In this document: positions 18,694 to 31,298 of the stretch, piece after piece
Numbering within the stretch: position 1 is the stretch's first letter
Layout of the letters: each line of letters begins with the position of its first letter
Assembly (NCBI GenBank): GCA_029907165.1
Contig: JARYMK010000003.1
Location: 1 to 48,276, forward strand
Reading direction: 5' to 3'
From: Anaerolineae bacterium
GTDB taxonomy: Bacteria; Chloroflexota; Anaerolineae; DTLA01
DNA: 48,276 bases
Position numbers and translations under genes: made by a program
The notes under the pieces: generated by a model
What the model was told of the DNA's origin: nothing
Databases searched by the model: none
Seen by the model: the letters and a program-made list of their open reading frames with translations, nothing else

Positions 18694-19617
18694 CTACGGC
18701 GCGGGCTGGGCGGGTGGCGTCGGCAGCGCAATCAGCGGGGTCAGCCCCTCGCTGGGCAGGATGCCCCAACTCACGCCCGTCAACTGCTTGATGAACTCCA
18801 GTTGCAGAATCTGCGGGTACTTGTCCAGCGCCTTGCCGCGCTCCTCAATGGCCTGCGCATCGCCGCGAGCGCGTTCAATCTCGGCCTGGGCGTCGCCCTT
18901 GGCCCGCTCAATCTCGGCCTGCGCCTCGCCTTTGGCCAGTTCCACGGTCTTCTCGGCCTGGTACACGGCGGCCTGGGCCTGGTAGCGGGCGGTCTCAATC
19001 TGCTCCTGGGCGATCTGCTGCTGCTCAATGGCGGCGATGTAATCGTCATCAAAGGCGATCTTGCGGAGGGCGAAACTGTCCAGCACCACGCCCTTCTCGG
19101 CGAACAGCGCCTGGAGCCGCCCGGCGATGTCCGACTCCACATTGAACACGTCGCCGCTGTAAAGTTGCTGCGCGGGGTAGCGCTGCATGGTCAGGCGCAC
19201 CACGCTGCGCGAGTGGAACTTTACCACGCGCTCGGTAACCATGTTCATGTTCTCGCCCACCTTGGCGTACACGTCGCGGATGTTCTCCTTGGGCACGTAG
19301 AAGCGCACGCTGAAGGTTACGGTGATGGGCTGCCCGTCGGAAGTCTGGGCGTCCACGAAGACATCGCGGAAATCGGCGTGGCTTTCGGTCGGCTCGCGCG
19401 AGGTCTCGTAGACCATGCCGCGGGTGCTGTAGCAGTTGTACTGCTGGGCGACGGGGATGCGCAGGTGGAAGCCGGGGCCGGCGATGGCGGTGATCTCGCC
19501 GAACGTGGTTACGGCGCACGCCTCGCCCGCGTCCACCACGCGCGCGAACCCTGTGGACGCCAGGACGATGACCACGACGAGCAGGATGATGGCCAGCGGG
19601 CCGAGTTTGCGGGACAT
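18694..19617 (-). CDS. SPFH/Band 7 (prohibitin-like) membrane protein
   Basis: A 307-aa protein with an N-terminal membrane anchor (about 5-25), an SPFH domain (about 28-200; VVDAGEACAVTTFGEITAIA, DVFVDAQTSDGQPITV) and an Ala/Glu/Gln-rich coiled coil (about 200-265) with repeated AKGEAQAEIERAKGDAQ units. The family assembles into ring-like membrane scaffolds and often regulates membrane proteases; no FtsH or NfeD partner is adjacent. ATG at 19617 is chosen for its AAGGAGG site; a Met 19 codons upstream has none. Under its own promoter. Confidence 0.88.
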   Translation of the reverse strand: MSRKLGPLAIILLVVVIVLASTGFARVVDAGEACAVTTFGEITAIAGPGFHLRIPVAQQYNCYSTRGMVYETSREPTESHADFRDVFVDAQTSDGQPITVTFSVRFYVPKENIRDVYAKVGENMNMVTERVVKFHSRSVVRLTMQRYPAQQLYSGDVFNVESDIAGRLQALFAEKGVVLDSFALRKIAFDDDYIAAIEQQQIAQEQIETARYQAQAAVYQAEKTVELAKGEAQAEIERAKGDAQAEIERARGDAQAIEERGKALDKYPQILQLEFIKQLTGVSWGILPSEGLTPLIALPTPPAQPAP

Positions 19618-19707: not shown

Positions 19708-19736
19708 ATTGTAGCAGAGGCGGGGCCAGGGAGCAA
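19708..19736 (-). promoter_or_regulatory. Putative promoter for the SPFH gene
   Basis: Minus strand: TTGCTC (19736-19731), 17-nt spacer, TACAAT (19713-19708). It shares the 19618-19963 intergenic region with the divergent promoter of the secreted modular gene; nothing else is evident there except a small GGTAC-TTTC-GTACC hairpin near 19834-19847. Confidence 0.55.
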
Positions 19737-19847
19737 GTGGGCGGAGAGACGGCGCTTGCCGCCAATAGATTGCCTCAATGCCGCGGTGGCAGCCAAAGGC
19801 AAGCAACCCCCTTGAAGGAGTACTGTCAAAGTCGGTACTTTCGTACC

Positions 19848-19877
19848 TTGTGCCGGGGTGGATTACCGTGGTATAAT
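19848..19877 (+). promoter_or_regulatory. Putative promoter for the secreted modular protein
   Basis: TTGTGC (19848-19853), 18-nt spacer, perfect TATAAT (19872-19877). The leader to the ATG at 19964 is about 80 nt. A 5-bp inverted repeat GGTAC/GTACC lies just before the -35 and could be an operator. Confidence 0.5.
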
Positions 19878-19963
19878 AGATTATCATTGGTGTTGTTGCC
19901 TCACTGCTTCCTCGTCGCCCGAAACACTTGGAAGGCTGCTTGTACCAACCGAGGAGGTGTAAG

Positions 19964-22132
19964 ATGCGGACGAAGGTTTCCATCGTGCTGCGGTTGTGGG
20001 TTCCGCTATTGTTGGCGTTTGGGGTCGTCGCGGTGGAGCCGAGTGTGTCTAGAAGGCCGCAGTCGGTAGTGCAAGCGGGGCCAGAGGAAGGGTGCGGTGA
20101 ACCTGGCGCACTTGGGAACTGCGATCCGAATGTTGGATGTTCGATCCCCGCGAGCAACCCGTATTCCTATCCCTGTCAATGCGTGTACAGGGCCTGGGAT
20201 CTTGCTGCAGCCGCGGGTCACAGGTTGCCCCGATTCGGTAATGCGTGCGCTTGGCGTCAAGGGGCCTTGAATTGTGGATATACGGTTGTAGATTCGCTCA
20301 GTAGTGCCTGCGTCAACTCAATAGCTGTATGGGGGCCACGGGTAGGCGGTGCATACGAATACGGCCATGTTGCATGGGTTACTGCAGTTGATGGCAATCG
20401 TTTCTACGTCAAGGAAAGGAACTGGGCGGTAAGTTGCGGCGATAGTGAGCGATGGGTAACTTGGGTAAGTGGCATCTCTTTCATTGTCTTTGGCAGTGGC
20501 AGTAACTGCTCTCTTACCAGCGTCCCTTCAGGCTACCACCAATGCGCCGACGAGGGCGGGCGGTGCAACTTCAGCGGCACGGCGAATGTGATCTATGGTG
20601 CGAACAACTGCTACACAGCGCCACGCTCTTTTGCGAATGGGGTAGACTGCAACAACGGAGTCTTCGGCGACCCGCTCCCTGGTGTGCACAAGTACTGCTA
20701 TACCAATGCCTCGGGGGGTGGCTGCAACAACCCAAGTCCCAACAGCGACCAAATCGGTTTGTATGAACATCCGGACTACTGCGGCGCATACAAAATCCTG
20801 GGCGTCGGTGAGTACCCCAACCCAGGTGCGATTGGACTCGCCAACGACAGCATCTCGTCTGTCAAGGTTGGGAGCAATGTAAAAGCCATTCTTTGTGAGC
20901 ACGACGGTTTTCAGGGCCGCTGCGAGGAGTTCCTCAACAACGACCCCAATTTGAGCGATAACTACGTCGGCAACGATAGCGTGTCTTCTGTGAAGGTGCA
21001 ATCACGTGTTACTACCTGCCCCGTGCCATCACCATCCAGTCCGAACGGGGCGCGGATACCCCAAACCCAGAGTGTGAACTTCACGTGGAGCGGGTCTTGC
21101 TCCCAGTATCGCGTCAAGTACTGGGGCGGCCCTTACTCGGGTGAGTTGTATTCGCCGTGGGTGGGCGGATCTTCGTGGACGCCGGGCACGCTGTGGTGCG
21201 GCAACTACTCCTGGCAAGTGCAGGGCAAGAGCAGCAGTGGGGCAGAGACAGGCTGGAGCGGGACACTGAACTTCACGGTCGCGCCCAACACTCCGACTGG
21301 TCTCACTGCTACTGCGGTTTCCCAGTCCCAGATCAACCTCTCGTGGAACGGGGTCCCCGGGCAGGTTGAAGGGTACAAAGTGTACCGCAACGGTTCGTAC
21401 ATTGGCAGTACCACAGGCACCTCATACCAGGCAACGGGGCTGAGTTGCAACACCGATTACTCGTTCCAAGTGAAGGCGTATGCGGTTGGCATTGATTCCA
21501 ACCCTAGCAACACCGCCAGCGCACGAACACATGCCTGTCCGCCGCAATTATGTCCCGCCCCAGGCAATTTGACAGCCACGACGTTGTCCCAAAGTTCTAT
21601 TCGCCTGGGCTGGCAGGACACCTGTGGCAACGAGGACTCCTTCAAGATCTACCGAAACGACACCCTGGTCAACACCGTGGGCGCGGGAACTACTACATGG
21701 ACTGACACTGGCCTCTCCTGCGGCACCACGTACTCCTACTATGTCAAGGCCCATAACGCCGCAGGGGACTCGCCCGCGAGCAACACCGTCAGTGCGCGCA
21801 CGCAGAACTGTCCTGATACTTGCCCTGGCGGCGACGCGGGCAATAGTTTTGACGGCGCGACGCTCGTCTATCCGCCTGTTGACAGGGCAGAGTACATCTG
21901 CCCTGTCAATGACGAAGACTGGTATCGGTTTTCGGCGAGCACTGGGCAGATGATACGAGTAACGTTGACCAGTTTGCCCGGTGATTACGATCTGTACCTT
22001 TACAGACCCAATGCGAGTCAGGCGAATGGCGCGTCAAGGTGGTTGGCTATGCAGGAGCATACAGTGCCACCGATTCGTACATACTGCACATTGGGATTGA
22101 ATCTCCGCAGACTGAGCAGAAAATCGGCCTAG
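19964..22132 (+). CDS. Secreted modular CHAP / beta-gamma-crystallin / FN3 / PPC protein, N-terminal part (frameshifted)
   Basis: 722 codons, starting at ATG 19964 after an excellent GAGGAGGTG site. Order: signal peptide (about 1-38); CHAP amidase-like domain (about 60-180) with candidate Cys73, His135 and Asn153; a Cys-rich module (about 185-250); two beta/gamma-crystallin motifs (265-346) with Ca-clamp sequences NDSISS and NDSVSS; a short Cys-bounded beta domain (about 352-440); two FN3 domains (about 441-522 and 530-613); and a pre-peptidase C-terminal (PPC) domain from about 620. The PPC domain breaks off at LYLYRPNASQ (about 677-686), after which the frame is wrong until the stop. The rest continues in another frame (next entry). 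CHAP suggests peptidoglycan or peptide amidase activity outside the cell. AT-richer than neighbours. Confidence 0.8.
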   Translation: MRTKVSIVLRLWVPLLLAFGVVAVEPSVSRRPQSVVQAGPEEGCGEPGALGNCDPNVGCSIPASNPYSYPCQCVYRAWDLAAAAGHRLPRFGNACAWRQGALNCGYTVVDSLSSACVNSIAVWGPRVGGAYEYGHVAWVTAVDGNRFYVKERNWAVSCGDSERWVTWVSGISFIVFGSGSNCSLTSVPSGYHQCADEGGRCNFSGTANVIYGANNCYTAPRSFANGVDCNNGVFGDPLPGVHKYCYTNASGGGCNNPSPNSDQIGLYEHPDYCGAYKILGVGEYPNPGAIGLANDSISSVKVGSNVKAILCEHDGFQGRCEEFLNNDPNLSDNYVGNDSVSSVKVQSRVTTCPVPSPSSPNGARIPQTQSVNFTWSGSCSQYRVKYWGGPYSGELYSPWVGGSSWTPGTLWCGNYSWQVQGKSSSGAETGWSGTLNFTVAPNTPTGLTATAVSQSQINLSWNGVPGQVEGYKVYRNGSYIGSTTGTSYQATGLSCNTDYSFQVKAYAVGIDSNPSNTASARTHACPPQLCPAPGNLTATTLSQSSIRLGWQDTCGNEDSFKIYRNDTLVNTVGAGTTTWTDTGLSCGTTYSYYVKAHNAAGDSPASNTVSARTQNCPDTCPGGDAGNSFDGATLVYPPVDRAEYICPVNDEDWYRFSASTGQMIRVTLTSLPGDYDLYLYRPNASQANGASRWLAMQEHTVPPIRTYCTLGLNLRRLSRKSA

Positions 22133-23925
22133 AGGCGGAACAGGGATCGCTTACGTCTCCGATGACCACTGGGTCCGACGCACAGGCATCAAACTGCCGC
22201 TACGTTTACAGTCCACAGGGCAACCTGGGCTCGGTGGAACTACAGTTCTCAGTCGCCCAGGCCGGAAACTACTACTTCTGGGCGCGGGGCATGGGCCTCA
22301 CGGACTACAACGAGAACTCCTTTTGGGCCTCTGTGGACGGTGGGGCGCGCTACCATTATGAGATCCCTGCCCCGGGTGGACAATGGCACTGGAGCCGTCT
22401 CTTTGGCGTCGCCACGCCTATTTGGCTCACGGCTGGCTGGCATACCATACGCTTTGACGGGCGCGAGCAGGGAGCACGATTGGACAAAGTACTGATCGTG
22501 AACACCGTGAATTACCAGCCTGGTGGTCAGGATGTAACGCCTTGTGTCATGCCAACAACCACGCCAACACGAAGCCGCACACCACAACCAACCGCGACAC
22601 CGACTCGCACGCGAACGCCAACGGCGACACCATCCATACCCTGCGGTCCCAACCAATGGCGTGCGGAGTACTTCAACAACGAGACCCTCTCGGGGCCACC
22701 CGTCGTCGTCAAATGCTACGACCAAGTCAATTTTGAGTGGGCAACTGGCGCGCCGGAGCCCGGGGTGAATGCCGACCATTTCTCAGCGCGCTTCTCGCGG
22801 TCTGTGAACTTCGCCGCGGGACGCTACAGATTCACCGTCTTCCGCGACGATGGTGCTCGCCTGTACCTGGACGGTACGCGGATTTTGGACGAATGGCGAT
22901 GGGGGCGTGAAGAGCACACGGTTGAAAGGGATATTCCCGCCGGTGCGCACGATGTGGTGCTTGAGGTCTACGAGATAGATGGCTGGGCCGCGGCGAAACT
23001 CTCCTGGCAACTGCTGGGCAGCAATGCGCCCTCCATTGGGAGCATTCAACCCGCCTGCGGCCGCAGCGACGCCTACCAAACCGTCAACTTCCAGACTGTG
23101 GCATCCGACCCCGATGGATGGCAGGACATCAAAATCATCTACTTTGTGGTCAATACCGCACCATCTTTTGCTGGCGGGGCGGCAGTGGCGTACAACGCCG
23201 AAATCAACCGTATGGTGATGAGGAACGAGAGTGGCACATCGTGGCTCGTGGGCGGGGCGCCAGGCTCCTCGGGCACGCTTGAGACGTCGCGCGCTCGCCT
23301 GGACATCGGGGCAAGCAGCAGAACTGTGGCGGGGAATCAAATGACTCTCACTTGGAGTCTGCAATTCAAGGCGCCGATGACAGGGCCTCAGAATCTGTAT
23401 ATGCTCGTGGTGGATAGGGCGAACAGACACACTGGCTGGCAGGTGGTTGGTTCGTGGGGAGTCGGCACCAGCGGCTCGCCGCCGTGCGTGGGCGCGGTAA
23501 CGCCGTCCAGCGGGCAGAGTGCGGCAGGGGTGCAAGCGCTCGTGGATACCGAATTCGGCGACCCGGATGGCTGGGAGGATCTGAAGATCGGGTACTTCTT
23601 GATCGCGCCGATACCGAACGCCAATTCGGACTGTGTTTACCTGGCGTACAACCAGGATGTGAACAAGATACTCCTGCGCAACGACCAGAACAACGCATGG
23701 TTGGGCGGATTCGCTCCGGGGACAAACGCCACGATCCAGAACAGCAATGTGATCGTTGACGTAGCCGACTGCTCGGTGAGCCATACAGCGCAGGGCCTTA
23801 CCGTCCGCTGGGCATTGCGCTTCAAGAATGAGTTCCGCGAGACTTACACCATGTACGCGATGGCGTTGGACAACCGCAACTACGTGGCCACGTGGCAGAA
23901 GAAGGGTACCTGGACGATACAGTAA
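22039..23925 (+). CDS. C-terminal continuation of the secreted modular protein (PPC end, CBM-like, PA14, duplicated domain)
   Basis: This ORF begins mid-domain: RVKVVGYAGAYSATDSYILH (from about 22034) is the usual final strand of the PPC domain left unfinished by the preceding ORF, so this is not an independent gene start and no Shine-Dalgarno is seen. A CBM-like beta-sandwich follows (AEQGSLTSPMTTG ... WHTIRFDGREQGARLDKVLI), then a Thr/Pro/Arg linker, a PA14 domain (WRAEYFNNETLSGPPVV ... RYRFTVFRDDGARLYLDG), and two related domains of about 130 aa, each opening with a Cys-containing strand and DPDGWQDIKI or DPDGWEDLKI. Probably extracellular and carbohydrate- or surface-binding. A terminator follows. 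Confidence 0.75.
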   Translation: MVGYAGAYSATDSYILHIGIESPQTEQKIGLEAEQGSLTSPMTTGSDAQASNCRYVYSPQGNLGSVELQFSVAQAGNYYFWARGMGLTDYNENSFWASVDGGARYHYEIPAPGGQWHWSRLFGVATPIWLTAGWHTIRFDGREQGARLDKVLIVNTVNYQPGGQDVTPCVMPTTTPTRSRTPQPTATPTRTRTPTATPSIPCGPNQWRAEYFNNETLSGPPVVVKCYDQVNFEWATGAPEPGVNADHFSARFSRSVNFAAGRYRFTVFRDDGARLYLDGTRILDEWRWGREEHTVERDIPAGAHDVVLEVYEIDGWAAAKLSWQLLGSNAPSIGSIQPACGRSDAYQTVNFQTVASDPDGWQDIKIIYFVVNTAPSFAGGAAVAYNAEINRMVMRNESGTSWLVGGAPGSSGTLETSRARLDIGASSRTVAGNQMTLTWSLQFKAPMTGPQNLYMLVVDRANRHTGWQVVGSWGVGTSGSPPCVGAVTPSSGQSAAGVQALVDTEFGDPDGWEDLKIGYFLIAPIPNANSDCVYLAYNQDVNKILLRNDQNNAWLGGFAPGTNATIQNSNVIVDVADCSVSHTAQGLTVRWALRFKNEFRETYTMYAMALDNRNYVATWQKKGTWTIQ

Positions 23926-23949
23926 CATCGCTTGAATGCATTCGGCGCG

Positions 23950-23984
23950 AGAGCCGTGGGGACTTCCTCACGGCTCTTTGTTTC
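23950..23984 (+). terminator. Rho-independent terminator after the secreted modular gene
   Basis: A 9-bp perfect stem AGAGCCGTG (23950-23958) / CACGGCTCT (23969-23977) with a 10-nt loop, then TTGTTTC. It closes the AT-richer unit 15-60 nt after the stop. Confidence 0.8.
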
Positions 23985-24006
23985 TGCACGCGATTCCGCA
24001 TCCTCT

Positions 24007-24035
24007 TTGCGCCCATCCACTTCCCATGCTACAAT
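24007..24035 (+). promoter_or_regulatory. Putative promoter for the FAD-linked oxidase
   Basis: TTGCGC (24007-24012), 17-nt spacer, TACAAT (24030-24035). The leader to the ATG at 24094 is about 52 nt. Confidence 0.55.
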
Positions 24036-24093
24036 CATTCGCAGCGATTCGCGTGCATTCGCGGTTACAACCCATCCGCTCAGGAGGTCTGCC

Positions 24094-25467
24094 ATGTCCG
24101 ACGCCACGCTGGAATTTTTGCGCTCCGTCGTGGGCGACGAGAACGTGTCCGTAACCCTCGCCGACCGCGAGGCCCACTCGCTGGACGAGTCGCATCACCC
24201 GCCTCACCTGCCCGACTACGTCGTCTGGCCCGATAACGAGGAGCAGGTCAGCCGTATCCTCGCCTACGCCAACGAGCACCGCATCCCCGTAACCGCACGC
24301 TCCGGTGGCTCGTCGCTGGACGGCAACCCGATTCCCGTGTTCGGCGGCATCGTCCTGTGCTTCTACCGCTGGGACAAGATTTTGGAGGTGCGCCCCGAGG
24401 ACATGCTCTGCGTCGTCCAGCCCGGCATCGTGTACGACGAACTGAACCGCCAACTGGCCCGCTACGGCCTCATGTACCCGCCCGCGCCCGCCAGCCACGA
24501 CGTGGCCACCATCGGCGGGATGGTCAACAACGGCTCCGGCGGGATGCACGCCTTCCGCTACGGCGTAACCCGCGACTACGTCCTGCAACTGCGCGTCGTC
24601 CTGGCCGACGGGCGCATCCTGAAAGTCGGCTCGCAGGCGGCCAAGTCGGCCAGCGGGTACGACCTCGTGCGGCTGTTCGTGGGCAGCGAGGGGACGCTGG
24701 GCATCATCACCGAGGTTACGCTGAAACTGCGCGCCATCCCCGAGAAGTCGGCGGCGCTGGCGGTCTTCCCAACGGTGGAGGATGCGGCCCGAGCGGCGTC
24801 GCAGATCATCGCCGCGGGCATCATCCCGGGCGCCATGGAACTCATGGACGCCGAGACGGTCGCCTTTGCCAACCGCTACTGCAACCTGGACATGCCCGAA
24901 TCGCCCATGCTGGTCATGGAGTTCCACGGCACGCCGTCCAGCGTCCGCGAGGACGTGGAGGTGGTGAAGGAGATCGCCGCCGAGTGCGGGTGCACGCTGT
25001 ACCAGCCCGCCACCACCGCCGAGGAGCGGGAGAACGTCTGGCGGGCGCGCAGCCAGGCCCACCTGGCCGTGAAGGAACTCAACCGCGACTGCGTCGTTAC
25101 CATCGGCGACATCGTCGTGCCCATCTCCAAGTACCCCGACGCCGTGAAGAAGGCCCACGCCCTGGGCAAGAAGTACGGCATCCGCGTGTGCACCTTCGGC
25201 CACGCGGGCGACGGCAACGTCCACACCGACACCATCGCCCGCCGCGATGTGCCGGGCGAACCCGAGCGTGCCCACCAGGTCCATGCCGAACTCATCCGCT
25301 GGGCGGTGGAGGTGGGCGGGACGTGCACCGGCGAGCACGGCATCGGCCTGGGCAAGCGCGAGTTCCTGGAATTGGAGCACGGCCCAGCGGTGGCGGTCAT
25401 GCGGGAAATCAAGCGCCTGTTTGACCCCAACGGAATCCTGAACCCGGGGAAGATATTCCTGGCTTAA
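24094..25467 (+). CDS. FAD-binding oxidase, GlcD / D-lactate dehydrogenase type
   Basis: A 457-aa flavoprotein of the PCMH/VAO class. The FAD-binding half shows PVTARSGGSSLDGNP, VQPGIVYDELN and PPAPASHDVATIGGMVNNGSG; the C-terminal half shows FGHAGDGNVHTD and GGTCTGEHGIGLGKREFLEL with the metal/substrate His residues, and ends NPGKIFLA. Family members oxidise glycolate, D-lactate or related 2-hydroxyacids and pass electrons to a carrier or a GlcF-type partner. No Fe-S partner gene is adjacent, so the electron acceptor is unknown. ATG 24094 has CAGGAGG 7 nt upstream; the longer upstream ORF crosses the promoter. Confidence 0.9.
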   Translation: MSDATLEFLRSVVGDENVSVTLADREAHSLDESHHPPHLPDYVVWPDNEEQVSRILAYANEHRIPVTARSGGSSLDGNPIPVFGGIVLCFYRWDKILEVRPEDMLCVVQPGIVYDELNRQLARYGLMYPPAPASHDVATIGGMVNNGSGGMHAFRYGVTRDYVLQLRVVLADGRILKVGSQAAKSASGYDLVRLFVGSEGTLGIITEVTLKLRAIPEKSAALAVFPTVEDAARAASQIIAAGIIPGAMELMDAETVAFANRYCNLDMPESPMLVMEFHGTPSSVREDVEVVKEIAAECGCTLYQPATTAEERENVWRARSQAHLAVKELNRDCVVTIGDIVVPISKYPDAVKKAHALGKKYGIRVCTFGHAGDGNVHTDTIARRDVPGEPERAHQVHAELIRWAVEVGGTCTGEHGIGLGKREFLELEHGPAVAVMREIKRLFDPNGILNPGKIFLA

Positions 25468-25515
25468 TCCATGGTGTCAGGTAGACCTCTCGGCCTGCGC
25501 AGAGGCGGCTCGCTG

Positions 25516-25544
25516 TTGACGCAATTCCGAACGGCGCGTACAAT
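25516..25544 (+). promoter_or_regulatory. sigma70-type promoter for the MNT/HEPN pair
   Basis: TTGACG (25516-25521), 17-nt spacer, TACAAT (25539-25544). The transcript would start only about 12 nt before the ATG at 25563, within or just before the GGGAGGA site. Confidence 0.7.
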
Positions 25545-25562
25545 GATGCCGGGAGGAACAAC

Positions 25563-25853
25563 ATGGTCGCCCTGCCTTTTGACGTCAATCGGCTGATAGA
25601 AATCTGCCGCCGCAACGATGTGGCGCGGCTAGCAATTTTCGGCTCTGTCGCGCGAGGCGAGTTCACGGACGAGAGCGATGTGGATCTCCTGGTGGAATTC
25701 TCCAAGCGCAAGAGTCTGCTTGCATTGGTCGCCCTGGAGCGCCAGTTGTCCGCGGCAATCGGGCGGAAGGTGGACCTGCTAACCGAGGCTGCCATCAGTC
25801 CCTACTTGCGCGACCGCATCAAGCGTGACCAAAGGGTGATCTATGAAGCGTGA
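25563..25853 (+). CDS. mntA: MntA-type nucleotidyltransferase antitoxin (MNT domain)
   Basis: A 96-aa minimal nucleotidyltransferase. The signature GS-x10-DxD is exact: Gly27-Ser28 ... Asp39-Val-Asp41, with a third acidic residue at Asp71 (KVDLLT). In the characterised MntA/HepT type VII systems this enzyme AMPylates the HEPN toxin on a Tyr and neutralises it. It overlaps the downstream HEPN gene by 11 nt, the expected toxin-antitoxin arrangement. The start has GGGAGGA 6-7 nt upstream and its own promoter. Confidence 0.88.
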   Translation: MVALPFDVNRLIEICRRNDVARLAIFGSVARGEFTDESDVDLLVEFSKRKSLLALVALERQLSAAIGRKVDLLTEAAISPYLRDRIKRDQRVIYEA

Positions 25854-26118
25854 TGACTCGGTGTACCTCCGTCACATGCGGGACGCCATAGCCAAGATTG
25901 AGGCGTACCTTGCGGATGTCAGCGAAACCGATTTCTACAAGCACAGTATGGTTCAAGATGCTGTAATCCGCCAACTTGAGATCATTGGCGAGGCCGTGCG
26001 ACACGTTTCGGAAGAACTACAGAATGCGTATCCAGAGATACCCTGGCAGGATATTGCGGGGATGCGCAACAAGCTCATCCATGACTATTTCGGTGTCGAC
26101 ATTGAAAAGTCTGGCTGA
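25843..26118 (+). CDS. hepT: HepT-type HEPN RNase toxin, C-terminus lost by a 1-nt frameshift
   Basis: 91 codons. The HEPN catalytic and AMPylation motif Rx4HxY is intact: Arg75, His80, Tyr82 in RNKLIHDY. The frame ends early at IEKSG. If one A is added to the A-run at 26105-26108, translation continues as VWLTATEDIALLKAEVLRIL and stops at 26180, exactly the ending expected of a DUF86 HEPN protein of about 112 aa. So either the gene carries a single-base deletion in a homopolymer or the sequence has an error there. The truncated form would lack the last helix but keep the active site. Confidence 0.85.
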   Translation: MKRDDSVYLRHMRDAIAKIEAYLADVSETDFYKHSMVQDAVIRQLEIIGEAVRHVSEELQNAYPEIPWQDIAGMRNKLIHDYFGVDIEKSG

Positions 26119-26233
26119 CTGCCACGGAAGACATCGCGCTTCTCAAAGCAGAGGTGTTGAGAATCCTCCAGGAATCATAGAATGCCCTCTCATCCGACGC
26201 GCTTGCTCGCCAACCTGGCCGCCGGGGGACAGC

Positions 26234-26974
26234 ATGGTGGCGGCCAGCGGTAACACCCCGATACACCTACTGGCTACCCTTCTCCTCCGTCGCGGCGCGG
26301 GCCTTGTGGGGTTCGCCGACCTGGCCGAAATCCCTGCCCACATCCGCCAGGGTCTGCCCCGCGCCGTGTCCATCGCGGTCCCGCTCAACCCGCACGTCAT
26401 CGCCGGAATCCGCCATGGTCCCACCCGCGAGTACCTGGCCGAATACCACCGAGCCAACGCCCTGCTCGGCGAACTGGCGCAGGCCGCCGTCGATGCCCTG
26501 TGCAGGGGCGGGTTCCGGGTAGCGTACGGCACGGCCACGGTCGCAGGCGTGGAATTTGGCCAGTACGACACGCCCCTGCCCCACAAGACCGTGGCCACCC
26601 GCGCCGGCCTGGGCTGGATCGGCCGCTGCGCGCTGCTGGTAACCGAGCGGTACGGGTCGGCGGTGCGGCTGATGACGGTGCTCACCGACGCGCCACTGGA
26701 CACCGCCGCGCCCGTGAACGACAGTCGTTGCGGCGAGTGCGTGGCGTGCGTGCAGGCGTGTCCGGGGCAGGCCATCACGGGCGGGCTTTGGCGCGCGGGA
26801 CTCCCCCGCGAGGCGATGGTGGATGCCGACGCCTGCTACCGCACGACGCGGCAATTCGCCCCGGCCATCGGCGCGGAGCCAAGCATCGGCATCTGCGGCG
26901 CATGCATCGCCGCCTGCCCATGGACGCAGCGGTACATCCGCGCGGCGTCGGGCGGGATGCGGGACGAGACATGA
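26234..26974 (+). CDS. Short epoxyqueuosine-reductase-like protein with two [4Fe-4S] clusters
   Basis: A 246-aa protein. It carries PHKTVATRAGLGWIGRCALL (117-134), the motif that precedes the ferredoxin part in QueG-related proteins, and eight Cys for two clusters: Cys 166, 169, 172, 176 and Cys 201, 221, 224, 228. It is shorter than full QueG (about 350-380 aa) and lacks the C-terminal HEAT-like part, so a queuosine role is doubtful; it belongs to the broader 4Fe-4S double-cluster family. ATG 26234 with GGGGGAC upstream is chosen because the longer ORF overlaps the HEPN gene. Confidence 0.8.
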   Translation: MVAASGNTPIHLLATLLLRRGAGLVGFADLAEIPAHIRQGLPRAVSIAVPLNPHVIAGIRHGPTREYLAEYHRANALLGELAQAAVDALCRGGFRVAYGTATVAGVEFGQYDTPLPHKTVATRAGLGWIGRCALLVTERYGSAVRLMTVLTDAPLDTAAPVNDSRCGECVACVQACPGQAITGGLWRAGLPREAMVDADACYRTTRQFAPAIGAEPSIGICGACIAACPWTQRYIRAASGGMRDET

Positions 26975-30688: not shown

Positions 30689-31228
30689 CTATTCCACCAG
30701 TAGAAACGCGTACCGGTTCATCGTCTGCGCATAATCCGACAATACCTCAATGGGATAGCCGAGTTTGCGAACCGTGGTAAAAACATCAACTGCCATCCCC
30801 TCCGGTGTGGGACGCGCAAGCTTCGGGTGCTTGCACTCGGCCCGCGCGGGGACGCAAGTGTCGCACAGGGAGCAAGGGGCCATCAGCAAAAGAAACGCCT
30901 TGAAGTGGCCTGACAGAAAGACATCTCGCTCCAGTTGCATAAGCCCACGATTGACTTCTCTGGTCCAGGGCAGCCGGTCTTCTGTCTCGTCTACTCTTCT
31001 TGCGAAGTGAAACACCGCCGCCACGGCATACTCGTGGAAGAACTGGCGACAATCCGCGACCGAGGGCAAATTCGGCGGGCAAGCCGCCTTTCGGCCGTAA
31101 CTGCTGCAACCGTAGGCACACTTCATTCGCACCCACTCGGCCACAGCGATCTCCGTCGGGTCAATCCAGCGGAGATCGCTGAACCCATGCTCGCCGAATA
31201 GAGATTCCAGTTGTTCGTGATGGGTCAT
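30689..31228 (-). CDS. DUF2284 Cys-rich metal-binding protein
   Basis: A 179-aa soluble protein with eight conserved-type Cys in two groups: Cys 37, 41, 50, 60 (KCAYGCSSYGRKAACPP) and Cys 119, 122, 125, 132 (APCSLCDTCVPARAEC). The family is annotated as metal-binding and is common in anaerobes; an Fe-S cluster or zinc is possible. The enzymatic role is unknown. GGAGGG precedes the ATG. It lies 70 nt downstream of argH on the same strand. Confidence 0.85.
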   Translation of the reverse strand: MTHHEQLESLFGEHGFSDLRWIDPTEIAVAEWVRMKCAYGCSSYGRKAACPPNLPSVADCRQFFHEYAVAAVFHFARRVDETEDRLPWTREVNRGLMQLERDVFLSGHFKAFLLLMAPCSLCDTCVPARAECKHPKLARPTPEGMAVDVFTTVRKLGYPIEVLSDYAQTMNRYAFLLVE

Positions 31229-31298
31229 CCGTCGCCCTCCGTGCAGAGTACCTCAGACGATCAGGGCTACTTGCCCAACCTTTCCGTTCGCTGAAGCC

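Follow-up and report, generated by a model that had tools for sequence, protein, structure and literature searches.

According to PMC6403190, CHAP enzymes attack peptidoglycan as peptidases, as amidases, or in both ways, and the targets described are its cross-bridges or the muramoyl amide bond. Modular CHAP hydrolases are already known. The gene analyzed here encodes a predicted further example, and it lies in a window of 48,276 nucleotides (the whole stretch of DNA analyzed; contig JARYMK010000003.1, assembly GCA_029907165.1) from an Anaerolineae bacterium of the Chloroflexota, whose genome (G000) is a metagenome-assembled genome (MAG) of 303 contigs. With the CHAP/peptidase C51 cell-wall hydrolases (PF05257), the product shares the fold family as judged by sequence, the Cys-His-Asn residues, and secretion. 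It differs in the modules that follow the N-terminal head: in place of LysM or SH3 domains, these are of the lectin, crystallin, FN3, PPC, CBM35-like, and PA14 types. This unusual set of binding modules is the new element, and no description of the domain architecture was found in the titles and abstract openings of the literature matches listed. The reading favored here, with some confidence, is that of a modular hydrolase of peptidoglycan, secreted by the cell and gained by horizontal transfer, which arose by head swapping and is now truncated or mis-assembled.

Probable gain of the gene between conserved neighbors

Relative to two congeners (G001 and G002), the closest relatives among the genomes compared, the outer limits of the insert were placed at 19755..24080 (no strand assigned), as given by the break points of homology to both genomes. 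In DNA alignments, homology to G002 stops at 19754 and homology to G001 at 19725, and both resume at 24081, while a short shared piece near the right border (catgctacaatc) indicates that the right edge of the insert may be near 24020. Hence, the insert, running from 19755 to 24020-24080, is wider than the 19840-23985 of the original prediction. It is flanked by an SPFH gene and an FAD-oxidase gene, both of which are kept in the congeners, and the aligned segments of the flanks are ~93-97% identical in G002 and 78-91% identical in G001. The site is empty in G001, with ~130 bases between its break points, and in G002 it holds ~800 bases with another gene, which encodes a Y1_Tnp (IS200-type transposase) domain; this is the pattern expected of a recent acquisition. 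Additionally, the N-terminal 351 residues of the protein had no match in G001 or G002.

The G+C content of positions 19840-23985 was 58.3%, which is below that of all 642 overlapping 4146-base windows drawn from 36 loci that together cover 470 kb of this genome (mean 65.1%, standard deviation 2.1; the loci L066-L069 contributed none). The G+C content at third codon positions (GC3) was 0.66 in the first open frame and 0.71 in the second, versus 0.826 (standard deviation 0.052) in 286 native open reading frames (ORFs), which were called mechanically by GC3 and not by a gene finder; only three and eight of these ORFs fell below the first and second frame, respectively. Seven native genes that share the PA14, CBM-like, or C-terminal domains had a GC3 of 0.78-0.88, so the shift is not caused by the type of domain. 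The composition is thus unlike that of the host genome and unlike that of native genes of the same kind, which is a second mark of recent acquisition.

As the empty site and the composition agree, a gain of the gene by horizontal transfer is well supported. Most simply, the lineage of the window would have gained the gene after splitting from G002; separate losses are less likely. The AT-richer composition noted and the horizontal origin inferred in the original prediction were both supported: the congeners keep the flanks and lack the insert, and neither a genome-mean composition nor a vertical distribution was observed. Its description of the unit as cargo-like held only in part, as the insert is a single gene, and no transposase or integrase frame was seen in 19755-24080 either in the ORF list read by eye or by Pfam, so that it has no mobility gene of its own. 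No other match to the edges of the insert was found within the sample of its own genome. As a separate observation, the IS200-type transposase gene at the same intergenic site in G002 (L047:13941-14585, contig C77) appeared RAYT-like by eye.

The CHAP head

All features of the gene lie on the + strand. A signal peptide-like N-terminus (19964..20083, recognized by eye without a predictor) is followed by the CHAP head at 20084..20503, which was identified by Pfam with an E-value of 2e-11 and a score of 44.7 bits, over the curated cut-off of 26. The residues located in the head are Cys73 (20180), His135 (20366), Glu151, and Asn153 (20420); of these, Cys73, His135, and Asn153 show no variation among five relatives and provide the catalytic Cys, His, and polar third residue of the family. 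The closest solved relatives are the C51/CHAP proteins 9eum, 5t1q, 2k3a, and LysK (4csh).

The nearest curated models were PcsB and ScrM, both far under their cut-offs. This nearness, together with the prevalence of autolysins among bacterial CHAP proteins, could point to an enzyme of the cell's own wall (an autolysin or separation enzyme) instead of one aimed at others. Such a role is distinctly unlikely given that the gene is absent from both congeners, and therefore not needed for growth of the genus, and that the protein has a foreign composition and a large sugar-binding part.

When the gene was cut at its module borders, the CHAP head had a G+C content at synonymous third positions (GC3s) of 0.48, versus 0.83 expected from its amino acids (z -10.7), and only one of 741 native 140-codon stretches was as low. 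The composition of the head differs from those of the adjoining signal peptide (p 0.006) and lectin module (p 0.0005). With the Thr/Pro linker (GC3s 0.475) also left out, the other modules showed no significant difference among themselves (p 0.10), and the last C-terminal domain was near native (GC3s 0.80). By composition, no part of the protein is more foreign than the CHAP head.

The 351-residue N-terminal part matched 49 of the 396 genomes of the class, its own included, mostly via the crystallin or lectin modules, while the CHAP part was matched in only four of the 49: G000 itself, G030, G090 (two genes), and G023. Some CHAP match was present in 103 of 400 genomes of the phylum, where the best one outside the own genome had an E-value of 8e-16 versus 7e-69 for the own. 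In pattern scans of one genome per species, which need short conserved stretches, may omit the own genome, and are not exhaustive, the 351-residue query found nothing in other phyla, and the CHAP alignment found three loci, all titled Chloroflexota, Anaerolineae, or Anaerolinea. This CHAP subfamily was thus seen only in Chloroflexota MAGs in these searches. The two G090 genes adjoin each other (L100:6822-9239, contig C146); each belongs to the same CHAP subfamily and has a signal-like N-terminus and a Pro-rich tail, with no binding domain seen by eye.

An N-terminal CHAP domain is also the usual order in phages according to PMC6403190, which would fit a phage-derived lysin captured by a bacterium. 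This origin appears very improbable, as no match was found in 50,697 phage records or in IMG/VR pattern scans with the 351-residue part and the CHAP alignment, and as the protein has a signal peptide and binding modules common to cellular Chloroflexota proteins.

The Cys-rich lectin-like module

Between the CHAP head and the crystallin domain lies a Cys-rich module (20504..20734) without a Pfam match, which is probably a shortened lectin of the rhamnose-binding (SUEL) type according to profile matches. PF02140 (SUEL) had no match reaching the Pfam cut-off in any of the 10 module members, and its search of 199 genomes of the class returned one weak match, outside the own genome. A 10-sequence profile searched against the PDB up to an E-value of 10 retrieved three distinct sequences, 5h4s (3.5e-7), 2zx0 (4e-4), and RemA (0.06), where the small E-values owe much to repetition because single lectin repeats score only 11-14 bits each over the FGDP motif. 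With hhalign, the module matched an SUEL alignment (one Pfam-positive, one similar, and one weak sequence) at a probability of 95 over 25 columns, and at 94 over 20 columns when the weak SUEL sequence was removed and another module alignment was used. Both the C-terminal FGDP..G..K motif and a profile relation to SUEL lectins were thus found.

An AlphaFold model of the module (predicted local distance difference test, pLDDT, 73) had no significant Foldseek match. In a VIA realignment of 1000 chains, the sea-urchin lectin 5h4s ranked second (Z 4.0, 60 residues, 27% identity) and the latrophilin lectin tenth (Z 3.1); the Z score alone is not decisive here, as a de novo design ranked first (Z 4.3). 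In latrophilin, Glu42, Tyr63, Gly117, and Lys120 contact rhamnose according to PMC2430599. The residues E197, Y211, G240, and K243 of the first open frame are invariant in 10 homologues, with Tyr sometimes replaced by Phe in IMG/VR rows, and they would be the counterparts of these sugar contacts. Compared with the SUEL lectins 5h4s, CSL3 (2zx0), and latrophilin, with which it has the FGDP-x-x-G-x-x-K motif in common, the module is only ~65-70 residues long, seemingly lacks the long loop 1 and the helix, and falls under Pfam detection. We predict, with reasonable though incomplete confidence, that it is a shortened rhamnose-type lectin.

The module also occurs apart from the gene. One plasmid match was confined to it (18% of the query), and IMG/VR contains 14 contigs, classed there as viral (L147-L160), whose secreted proteins include the module or its FGDP motif; among these contigs, L151 has three tandem copies and L156 a true SUEL_Lectin match.

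The crystallin module and the proposed exchange of enzyme heads

The beta/gamma-crystallin domain (PF00030; 20735..21019, with an alignment of 15 sequences) was identified by Pfam with an E-value of 6.4e-9 and 36.3 bits, over the curated cut-off of 25. The stretch of lectin and crystallin is 62% identical in a G364 protein that carries a NAGPA head. The heads borne by this module in the class were surveyed in 21 crystallin-module proteins, four of which are cut at the end of their sequence stretch, while L052, L200, and weaker crystallin matches were left out. Wall-cutting heads (M23, CHAP, and Amidase_3) were found in seven of the 21 and in none of 15 PA14 controls from the same class, a control set that is small and unmatched in length (p 0.027, two-sided; 0.030 without a sub-threshold M23). 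These heads included five M23 (one under the Pfam cut-off), one CHAP, and one Amidase_3, besides which three NAGPA (one also with S8), one trypsin, and one Rv2525c-like head were found. The 15 controls carried none of these heads, wall-cutting or other; LysM was present in one of them and SH3 in three.

Individual proteins illustrate the variety of heads. In the secreted Chloroflexota proteins L105, L182, L183, L186, L188, and L197, as well as L103, L104, and L185, the crystallin module is common to the present gene while the heads are others (M23, Amidase_3, or NAGPA); in L103 and L105 the Cys-rich module precedes the crystallin, as it does here. The G358 protein L184 (1304 residues; CHAP, crystallin, PKD, and PPC) likewise has a CHAP head, a crystallin followed by an Ig-like spacer (43% identity), and a PPC domain, whereas the PA14 and lectin modules were not found in it. 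The CHAP heads of the two proteins give no BLAST match to each other, and the CHAP-crystallin pairing in L184 has therefore probably arisen separately. Judging by its composition and by the other heads found on the crystallin module, head swapping probably brought the present CHAP head onto a scaffold that already existed.

A protein that is no wall enzyme, acting instead as an adhesin or matrix protein or having a CHAP domain that acts on another amide bond (in secreted peptides or glycoconjugates), would suit the binding and spacer domains that make up most of its length and the occurrence, elsewhere in the class, of trypsin, S8, and NAGPA heads on the crystallin module. We consider this unlikely in view of the catalytic residues, kept in all five aligned relatives, and of the peptidoglycan bonds (those of the cross-bridges, or the muramoyl amide) that CHAP enzymes are described to cut in PMC6403190.

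Besides the limits of the control set, several observations weigh against a head-swapped wall hydrolase. Nine of the 21 crystallin proteins have no recognized enzyme head, and five have other heads only (NAGPA, S8, trypsin, or Rv2525c-like). No LysM, SH3, or PG_binding domain was found in a Pfam scan of the protein. When the gene was divided into fixed 140-codon blocks, GC3s ranged from 0.56 to 0.735, an ordinary spread (0.175) compared with that of 18 native genes (mean 0.15, maximum 0.40), and the contrast of the CHAP head thus depends on cutting at module borders. Lastly, the gene is interrupted, either by a natural deletion or by an assembly fault, and is possibly broken.

Under the favored reading of a transferred hydrolase, one gene, complete with promoter and terminator, would have arrived by horizontal transfer at an intergenic site, and its product would be a Sec-secreted modular enzyme. 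The N-terminal CHAP head would most likely hydrolyze peptidoglycan as an amidase or endopeptidase. The short lectin, crystallin, CBM35-like, and PA14 modules may hold the enzyme near glycan-rich targets, with the Ig, FN3, and PPC domains as spacers. The enzyme could then dock on glycan-coated cells or debris and cut peptide or amide bonds of the peptidoglycan, the most likely target being the wall, whether of another bacterium or of a dead cell. A peptidoglycan-lytic function is plausible on this sequence basis, and the wall-lytic role originally suggested gains indirect support from the intact catalytic residues and the heads associated with the crystallin module. The predatory or biofilm role also suggested originally would be no more than a possibility.

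Sediments and sludge are rich in uncultured Chloroflexota, and to our knowledge little is known of how these bacteria act on neighbors. We tentatively propose that, in Chloroflexota of the Anaerolineae type, a short lectin and a crystallin domain might together form a widespread docking platform for exchangeable heads, either wall-cutting (CHAP, M23, and Amidase_3) or of other hydrolase kinds, and that single-gene lysins might pass from one lineage to another as self-contained units, from promoter to terminator, for antagonism against neighboring bacteria or scavenging of them. The gene, caught after its arrival and with an empty site in a near relative, offers a clean case of a transferred secreted wall-type enzyme. 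It also suggests a testable rule, namely that crystallin modules in the class tend to mark secreted wall hydrolases.

Expression signals and the break in the PPC domain

An extended -10 promoter element (TGGTATAAT, 19869..19877, with TATAAT at 19872) lies ahead of the gene, and TGnTATAAT occurs nowhere else in the window, whichever strand is read; a search for a -35 box gave no good candidate. A ribosome-binding site read from the sequence (GAGGAGG, 19951..19957) precedes the ATG at 19964. Downstream of the gene, an intrinsic terminator (23949..23978) consists of a stem of 13 pairs, eight of them GC, followed by TGTTTCTG, and its stem was the longest among six candidates found (3.7 expected). 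The promoter and strong terminator of the original prediction were thus both recovered. So was its domain string, in which CHAP, Crystall, two fn3, PPC, and PA14 were matched by Pfam, the CBM was recognized through L078, and the C-terminal duplication was observed.

The string is split over two frames. The first (P0001, 722 residues, 19964..22132, frame 2) encodes, in order, the signal peptide, CHAP, Cys-rich module, beta/gamma-crystallin, Ig-like spacer, two FN3 domains, and the first half of PPC. The second (P0002, 21988-23925, frame 1, 645 residues as translated) continues with the remainder of PPC, the CBM35-like domain, and PA14, and ends in an unnamed domain present twice. The PPC domain (21818..22113) is broken at ~22019-22024, with its first half in frame 2 and its end in frame 1. 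In frame 2 it was matched by Pfam (4e-6) only over positions 1-38 of the 70-position profile, and its last strands are readable in frame 1. The two halves abut here, while 19, 20, and 21 residues separate them in the three relatives in which both halves were aligned. About 20 residues are therefore missing, and frame arithmetic gives the missing length as a multiple of three plus one, ~58-61 bases. The protein is accordingly not merely mis-framed, as its treatment as a rejoinable protein in the original prediction had implied.

A simple sequencing slip between the frames was rejected, as the halves abut with ~20 residues gone. Programmed -1 frameshifting was likewise rejected by reading the sequence, since frame 2 is already junk where frame 1 shows the end of PPC; no slippery heptamer was noticed by eye near the break. 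No good separate start was found for the second half: it has a GTG at 22039, and no ribosome-binding site was seen by eye. If the break is natural, translation from the good start would end at 22132, and the C-terminal binding half would be lost.

These features raise the alternative of a decaying gene, in which deletion and frameshift inactivated the transferred protein and left no function or an unstable fragment. The loss of ~20 PPC residues with a change of frame, the poor start of the second half, the mixed composition, and the lack of a copy in relatives all fit such decay. It is nevertheless rather unlikely, considering that, apart from the break, no stop codon interrupts the 722 and 645 residues of the two halves, that the promoter, ribosome-binding site, and terminator are intact, that the enzyme, lectin, and crystallin parts all survive in the first half, and that an assembly fault is possible in a MAG of 303 contigs.

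Spacers, binding domains, and the C-terminal pair

The remaining modules have relatives in different genomes. The Ig-like spacer (21020..21277) is 67% identical in G018, and the two FN3 domains (21278..21817) were matched by Pfam in two stretches (5.8e-20). The CBM35-like domain (22114..22527; residues 49-184 of P0002) shares 49% identity with residues 960-1091 of L078, in which the Pfam CBM_35 match covers 960-1063. A Thr/Pro linker (22528..22650, read in the second-frame translation) leads to the PA14 domain (22651..23025; Pfam 1.2e-12). As the relatives of the modules differ by genome and the composition agrees, the gene is, as judged from its sequence, a mosaic.

The C-terminus (23026..23922) is a tandem of an unnamed domain of ~147 residues, whose copies are 31% identical to each other; the best matches of the pair, at 50-52%, are native proteins of the same genus. 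Neither Pfam nor the PDB gave a convincing match to the domain. A model from two sequences (pLDDT 62) gave weak, Ig-like Foldseek matches, with a best E-value of 0.004. The domain was present in 18 of 396 genomes of the class, usually in tandem and with up to 10 scored copies per genome, and a viral scan with it found no match. It was also seen in contigs C292 and C235 of the own genome and in many G008 contigs. Two leads follow: the Cys-rich module may be a short bacterial counterpart of the rhamnose-binding lectins of animals, and a ~147-residue domain is missing from Pfam.

Neighboring genes

The left neighbor is an SPFH/Band 7 protein (18694..19617, - strand; Pfam 7.5e-28), which is 98% and 91% identical in the two congeners. 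The right neighbor, a FAD-linked oxidase-like protein named by eye (24094..25467, + strand), is conserved in both according to the DNA alignment. Further downstream, an NTP_transf_2 nucleotidyltransferase and a HepT-like ribonuclease (25563-26118, + strand) form a probable MNT/HepT toxin-antitoxin module; the region of this pair is covered by the G002 alignment, and the G001 alignment skips 25466-26278. A further ORF of low GC3 (0.66) and unusual codon use was observed at 30692-31252 (- strand) among native-looking neighbors.

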